From a virus: a stretch of 24,640 nt of DNA. Both the position numbers and the translations under genes were made by a program. Numbering within the stretch: the stretch's first letter is position 1; each line of letters starts with the position of its first letter. Where the stretch lies: positions 1 to 24,640 of the IMG/VR virus record IMGVR_UViG_3300006922_000174. One strand, written 5' to 3'. The notes under the pieces are model-generated. The model had not been told where the DNA came from. It did no database searches and saw nothing but the letters and a program-made list of their open reading frames with translations. This document shows positions 6,302 to 6,856 of the stretch, in pieces.

Positions 6302-6819
6302 CCCTTCGTAGGGTCTTCAGTCTCAAGATCATCACCATAACCGGCATAGTCAAGAATCTTTAGAGCAGTATTCTCAAGGTGCGGGTCAATAGCATAGAAC
6401 GCACGAATCGCATCAGGAAGCGGACGGGCTGTATCAGTCATGTCCATAATCGCCTGCGATGCAAAAGTAATAGCGTTACCCTCGTCATCTAAAACTAACT
6501 CTTCGTTAAAGTAAATGCCTGAAACCGTCTGACCCACAACGTAACACGAAAACTTGATCGAGTCCAACTCGTCAGTCTTACGGTTCGTTGAGTTTCGACG
6601 CCACGCCTTCAACTGGTCATTAGTGATATTAGGGGAAAACCTAACTGTTACGCCCTTACGCTCCGGCACAGGCATCTCAATCTCAGGACGGGTAACCTCA
6701 CGGCTAATTTCTTCCTTCAACTGATCCAGGACTGTAACTCGCTTGGACTTGCTCTTAGCAGGAGTCGGCGTAGATGTATCCGAACCTGCAACTTCAATGA
6801 TTTCGTTATTGTCACTCAT
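6298..6819 (-). CDS. Tail assembly chaperone (gpG-like)
   Basis: A 173-residue acidic protein between tail tube and tape measure, the standard place for the tail assembly chaperone. It has a Ser/Thr/Pro/Lys-rich flexible start (residues 1-35), a central beta segment (VTVRFSPN, IKFSCYVVGQTVSG) and a helical C-terminus that ends exactly where a -1 extension frame begins. The ATG at 6819 has no Shine-Dalgarno sequence; instead a promoter ends seven bases upstream, so translation is probably leaderless. The preceding gene ends in a strong terminator, so this gene likely starts its own transcript with the tape measure and baseplate genes. Sequence similarity to named chaperone families was not recognised; the call rests on order, size and the frameshift. 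Confidence 0.75.
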   Translation of the reverse strand: MSDNNEIIEVAGSDTSTPTPAKSKSKRVTVLDQLKEEISREVTRPEIEMPVPERKGVTVRFSPNITNDQLKAWRRNSTNRKTDELDSIKFSCYVVGQTVSGIYFNEELVLDDEGNAITFASQAIMDMTDTARPLPDAIRAFYAIDPHLENTALKILDYAGYGDDLETEDPTKG

Positions 6820-6826
6820 AACGTGT

Positions 6827-6856
6827 ATATTAGTTGTTTTCTGCCAATGCTGTCAA
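6827..6856 (-). promoter_or_regulatory. Promoter for tail chaperone, leaderless geometry
   Basis: On the minus strand an exact TTGACA (6856-6851) is followed, 18 bases later, by TAATAT (6832-6827). Seven bases separate the -10 from the ATG at 6819, so the expected start of transcription coincides with the start codon. It sits just after a strong terminator. An alternative -10, TATACA at 6829-6824, would need a 21-base spacer and is less likely. Confidence 0.6.

Follow-up and report, generated by a model that had tools for sequence, protein, structure and literature searches.

A conserved, predicted leaderless promoter layout at the tail assembly chaperone gene and other genes of a group of uncultured phages

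Leaderless genes, marked by a TANNNT motif about 12 bp upstream of the start codon, are common in Actinobacteria (PMC3160421; PMC3890552). Prediction puts them at 19% on average (PMC3160421); among mapped mRNAs of C. glutamicum, 33% are leaderless, with AUG or GUG starts (PMC3890552), and the share is about 14% in mycobacteria (PMC7148126). The −35 box is weakly conserved in C. glutamicum promoters. In the Deinococcus-Thermus phylum, a TANNNT motif placed a few bp before the ORF, with a required spacing, likewise leads to leaderless mRNA, in this case from chromosomal genes and for nearly one third of D. radiodurans genes (PMC12340547). Leaderless phage genes whose promoter starts transcription at or next to the AUG have been described individually, such as the lambda-phage case (PMC3160421) and the predicted case of Adephagia gene 90 (PMC11373665).

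The phages considered here share with actinobacterial leaderless genes a −10 box abutting the start codon, the lack of a Shine–Dalgarno (SD) sequence, ATG or GTG starts and the coexistence with SD-led genes (PMC3160421, PMC3890552, PMC7148126); they differ in that the layout belongs to a phage group, sits at specific orthologous phage genes and includes a near-consensus −35 box at many sites. Compared with Deinococcus-Thermus, the phylum is another one and the proportion of genes concerned is about a tenth; compared with lambda and Adephagia, the layout is repeated and includes a virion-assembly gene. Leaderless transcription by sigma-70/sigma-A is thus a mechanism already known, of which we report a strong new example across a gene set; what is new is its predicted extent, that is, a conserved, gene-specific leaderless promoter layout in a phage group, virion assembly included. 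We did not see this layout in the closest cultured relatives that we examined, namely Bendigovirus (Gordonia phages GMA6 and DalanDe) and Cantarevirus (Brevibacterium phage Cantare), whose capsid proteins are 46–49% identical to ours and whose tail sheath is related. Their chaperone gene also follows the tail tube gene, but it has no abutting promoter; a hairpin and a leader are found instead, with a clear SD, TTAGGAG, in GMA6, and the parts of these genomes that we compared contain no promoter at distance 6.

The stretch of DNA analysed, hereafter the window, is 24,640 nucleotides (24.6 kb) long and makes up its whole IMG/VR record. Searched as a whole by megablast, the window matched no phage, and no tRNA was found in it. 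The label “marine” for this phage group is our assumption, taken from the general origin of such IMG/VR contigs. The structural proteins are closest to those of actinophages: all 88 records matching the tail sheath are actinophages (Arthrobacter, Gordonia and Brevibacterium phages only), and the best capsid matches, at 46–49% identity, are from Gordonia and Brevibacterium phages, which places the phage, with its contractile tail, near Bendigovirus and Cantarevirus. When bacterial genomes were searched with the tail sheath alignment, an unclassified Actinomycetota metagenome bin yielded a single relative at 37% identity, Microbispora gave a short match, and the matches in gammaproteobacteria were distant; in the metagenome bin, the promoter pattern described below is hardly enriched (4 versus 1). 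On the strength of the structural-protein matches, the actinobacterial host proposed in the initial annotation seems a sound guess; the matches agree with a host of this kind, in which leaderless genes are frequent.

On the minus strand of the window, the tail assembly chaperone gene (6298..6819; zero-frame product of 173 aa; PHROG 5088, E 3.8e-17) is preceded by a TTGACA −35 box (6856–6851), an 18-nt spacer, a TAATAT −10 box (6832–6827) and 7 nt leading to the ATG (6819–6817), exactly to the base as first annotated. The hexamers at 6856–6827 match the consensus at 10 of 12 bases and have the form of a sigma-70/sigma-A promoter, that is, a TTGACA-like and a TAnnnT-like box separated by 16–18 nt. 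The tail tube gene ends at 6923 on the same strand; it is followed by an intrinsic terminator, the hairpin GGGCGCTACTTCGGTAGCGCC with a T-rich tail (6898–6877), and then by the chaperone promoter. Duplex energies agree with the earlier remark that the chaperone gene has no SD and that most of its neighbours have good ones: its best duplex with the 16S tail reaches −2.5 kcal/mol and lies 17 nt from ATG 6819, as against −6 to −13 kcal/mol at 3–10 nt from the start for most neighbouring genes, bearing in mind that a −10 box at 6–7 nt leaves little space for an SD, so that its absence is partly forced. A downstream start for the chaperone was rejected, as an EIIEVA-like N-terminal stretch is conserved right after ATG 6819; the window offers no further in-frame start for about 34 codons. 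A scan for loosely defined promoters over the window's first 20 kb showed no enrichment (16 sites for 19.8 expected); since a scan limited to the window is uninformative on the role of chance, relatives were compared instead.

We fetched 32 loci encoding the same chaperone and compared 24 sequences in detail, the window included. The arrangement TTGAC-N17/18-TAnnnT-N6/7-ATG, which covers both boxes of the window, is kept in 20 of these 24 loci, several of which are near-duplicates, so that the independent lineages number roughly 14. The DNA farther upstream varies: the window has a terminator there, most relatives the end of another gene; in the latter, the stop codon of the upstream gene is near or against the −35 box, and directly against TTGACA in, for example, GACTAGTTGACA. 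As for the four remaining loci, L023 and L027 have no promoter at the chaperone and carry the SD-like GAAAGAAAGG there, while L028 and L030 have TTGACA about 28 nt farther upstream together with an SD-like AAAGGA. An SD-like sequence therefore accompanies the loci without an abutting promoter, and none is found in the usual position at those with one; the base before the ATG is C or T in all 20 loci with an abutting promoter and A or G in the four SD-type loci. This comparison supports the leaderless architecture initially suggested for the chaperone gene.

Three further observations concern these loci. As predicted from their sequences, L023, L027, L028 and L030 would show one gene switching naturally between a leaderless and an SD-led start. 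In many relatives, L004, L010 and L017 among them, an extra gene stands between tail tube and chaperone, where the window has its terminator; we take the 3′ end of this gene to resemble a peptidoglycan-binding motif (DEGLAVDGVVGPKTW-like). Finally, most chaperone loci have a GAAA motif in their promoter spacer (about 6843–6838 in the window); it is not seen at the HTH gene discussed below, and could be a regulator site.

The layout extends well beyond the chaperone. Across 16 records of the group, TTGACN-N16-18-TANNNT-N5-8-ATG gave 95 matches, versus 4 for a reversed-pattern control. The distance from promoter to ATG, computed over ten records (~730 kb), has a single sharp peak at 6 nt (64 cases, versus about 8 for each other distance), and the 62 promoters with exactly this distance from −10 box to ATG represent a 24-fold excess over the 2.6 expected from first-order Markov sequence; the records being related fragments, these counts are not independent events. 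When the −10 box only was counted, upstream of the first ATG of ORFs of at least 60 codons, the peak was again at 6 (112 versus about 19). Distance 10 from promoter-like sites also shows an excess of ATG, though a smaller one (21 versus about 8), which is absent from this −10-only count. Strong SDs accompany 23 of the 29 promoters located 9–30 nt from the ATG, versus 5 of the 59 located at 6–7 nt. With simple gene calling and permissive score cut-offs, under which some of the layout and SD calls are due to chance, the layout is present at roughly a tenth of the predicted genes of each long record and most other genes have an SD of at least 4 bases. Among the recurrent cases are the genes for the chaperone and an HTH protein and, in relatives, those for RecA, 2OG-Fe(II) oxygenases and two proteins that are ParB-like and peroxiredoxin-like, respectively. 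There were zero promoters at distance 6 in all seven comparison phages, nearest cultured relatives included (GMA6, most of Cantare, part of DalanDe, Bolt007, part of DSL-LC01, part of P23-45, and lambda), several of which are richer in G+C and have lower promoter counts in general for that reason. To judge from the sequences, the recurrence at the same genes across the group (62 versus 2.6, and 20 of the 24 chaperone loci) is a real design and not a chance pattern, as the initial annotation had held.

Three other sites of the window, all on the minus strand, had been singled out for the same geometry, 12514 firmly and the two others more weakly. At 12514, TTGACA-N17-TATCAT (12521..12549) ends 6 nt before the ATG, no SD duplex was found, and all 15 distinct upstream sequences from orthologs keep the full promoter; the gene (12131..12514) encodes the HTH protein, of 127 aa, with a Helicase-associated domain and a weak match to late transcriptional activator families. 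The promoters at 12910 and 15958 are of another kind, consisting of a terminator plus a −10 box, and are conserved in orthologs. The weaker recurrence at 12910 was confirmed, as a TAAGAT −10 box (12917..12922) lies 6 nt before the GTG and a G+C-rich hairpin (12931..12961) takes the place of the −35 box; orthologs retain hairpin, −10 box and distance. The SD duplex is −1.8 kcal/mol there, the GTG start is supported by the ATG found in most orthologs, and the 117-aa product (12557..12910) is predicted to be read from a leaderless mRNA. At 15958, the promoter is indeed kept in orthologs, but the geometry is less exact than had been claimed: the extended −10 TGCTATACT (15967..15975), directly downstream of an intrinsic terminator (15979..16000), lies 8 nt before the ATG in the window and one close relative, and most orthologs have TATAAT or TATACT at 5 nt. 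With these distances, the mRNA of the 242-aa protein (15230..15958) would be leaderless or carry a leader of a few nt; an SD duplex of −4.7 kcal/mol exists at this site but is 20 nt away. Separately, the class II ribonucleotide reductase gene at 15119 (minus strand) has neither an SD nor a −10 box at distance 6, with TACAAT 18 nt upstream, which suggests a short leader without SD.

A pyrimidine followed by a purine is a common start signature of bacterial RNA polymerase. Of 43 non-redundant distance-6 cases, 41 have C or T as the −1 base, a position not used to select the sites; the frequency of a pyrimidine at −1 is 92%, while SD genes show 53% (Fisher p = 6e-8) and the remaining ORFs 45%. 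When 6 nt separate the −10 box from the ATG, the canonical +1 falls on the A. The chaperone of the window, at distance 7 and not at the modal 6, has a T before its ATG and hence a pyrimidine-purine start with a predicted +1 at 6819; its −10 box would thus place the +1 on the start codon, and no SD is present. Spacing and −1 pyrimidine both point to the transcription from the A of the ATG that the initial annotation expected.

We consider it very probable that the chaperone site is a genuine sigma-70/sigma-A promoter at which host RNA polymerase starts at the A, and that the resulting leaderless mRNA is translated. Given the close −10 box, the A of the start codon would be the first base of the chaperone transcript, and this mRNA would be recognised by its 5′-terminal AUG and the initiator tRNA instead of SD pairing. 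The tail-tube transcript would end at the upstream terminator, so that the chaperone, and probably what follows, would open a new transcription unit, most likely with an expression level of its own; leadered chaperone transcripts may in addition arise by read-through from promoters lying upstream. That the promoter is real but starts a few nt upstream, for example at 6822 or 6824, with a nearly leaderless transcript bearing a 3–5 nt leader, is in our opinion quite unlikely: the sequence itself is compatible with a start 1–5 nt upstream, the distances of 7 (chaperone) and 8 (15958) permit a start before the A, and C. glutamicum sigma-A promoters tolerate 3–11 nt from −10 box to start (PMC3890552), but the mode of the group at exactly 6 and the nearly constant −1 pyrimidine point to the A of the ATG.

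We give still less credit to the idea that the block is the binding site of a phage regulator or sigma factor resembling a sigma-70 promoter, leaderlessness being a by-product. The GAAA of most chaperone spacers and the HTH protein encoded nearby, with its weak late-activator similarity, would fit such a site, but GAAA is missing from the HTH promoter, and TTGACa/TAnnaT, the 17-nt spacing and the pyrimidine-purine start are accounted for by the host housekeeping factor with nothing further to assume. Least credible of all are chance hexamers in A+T-rich intergenic DNA, with SD-less translation of the chaperone from a longer transcript that reads through from upstream: the window has no more loose promoter-like sites than shuffled DNA, but the promoter has an intrinsic terminator just upstream and is kept across relatives with different upstream DNA, and this comparison, with the 24-fold excess at one distance, already contradicts a chance origin.

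Beyond the genuine sigma-70/sigma-A promoter that we favour, leaderless mRNAs may form a separate expression class, a fixed gene set (HTH regulator, RecA, ParB-like protein, oxygenases and tail chaperone) bypassing SD-dependent initiation, which the phage could favour or spare when it, or the stressed host, alters the pool of ribosomes and initiation factors; we regard this as an unlikely, though conceivable, extension.

The chaperone gene continues in the −1 frame (6104..6301, minus strand; LIDELADDVR...), presumably through a frameshift at GGC TAA. At the zero-frame stop, 17 sequences share GGC TAR, in the form CCT...GGC TAR mostly followed by TTGA, and no classical X_XXY_YYZ heptamer was found in this region. 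In the window, CCT...GGC TAR (6298–6310, minus strand) is right at the zero-frame stop and may be an unusual stop-adjacent shift site. The suggestion in the initial annotation that the leaderless start may set the level of initiation for this frameshifted gene is speculative. A tuning of the frameshift product ratio by the leaderless start is not supported, because this ratio is set at the shift site and because leaderless and leadered mRNAs of M. tuberculosis show no systematic difference in protein/mRNA ratio (PMC7148126).

For this group of uncultured phages, transcription starts can thus be predicted at the level of the base, and a virion-assembly gene is probably leaderless. One and the same gene offers predicted natural swaps between leaderless and SD-led initiation. 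As for start-codon calling in these phages, a −10 box 6–7 nt upstream would be a useful marker beside the SD.
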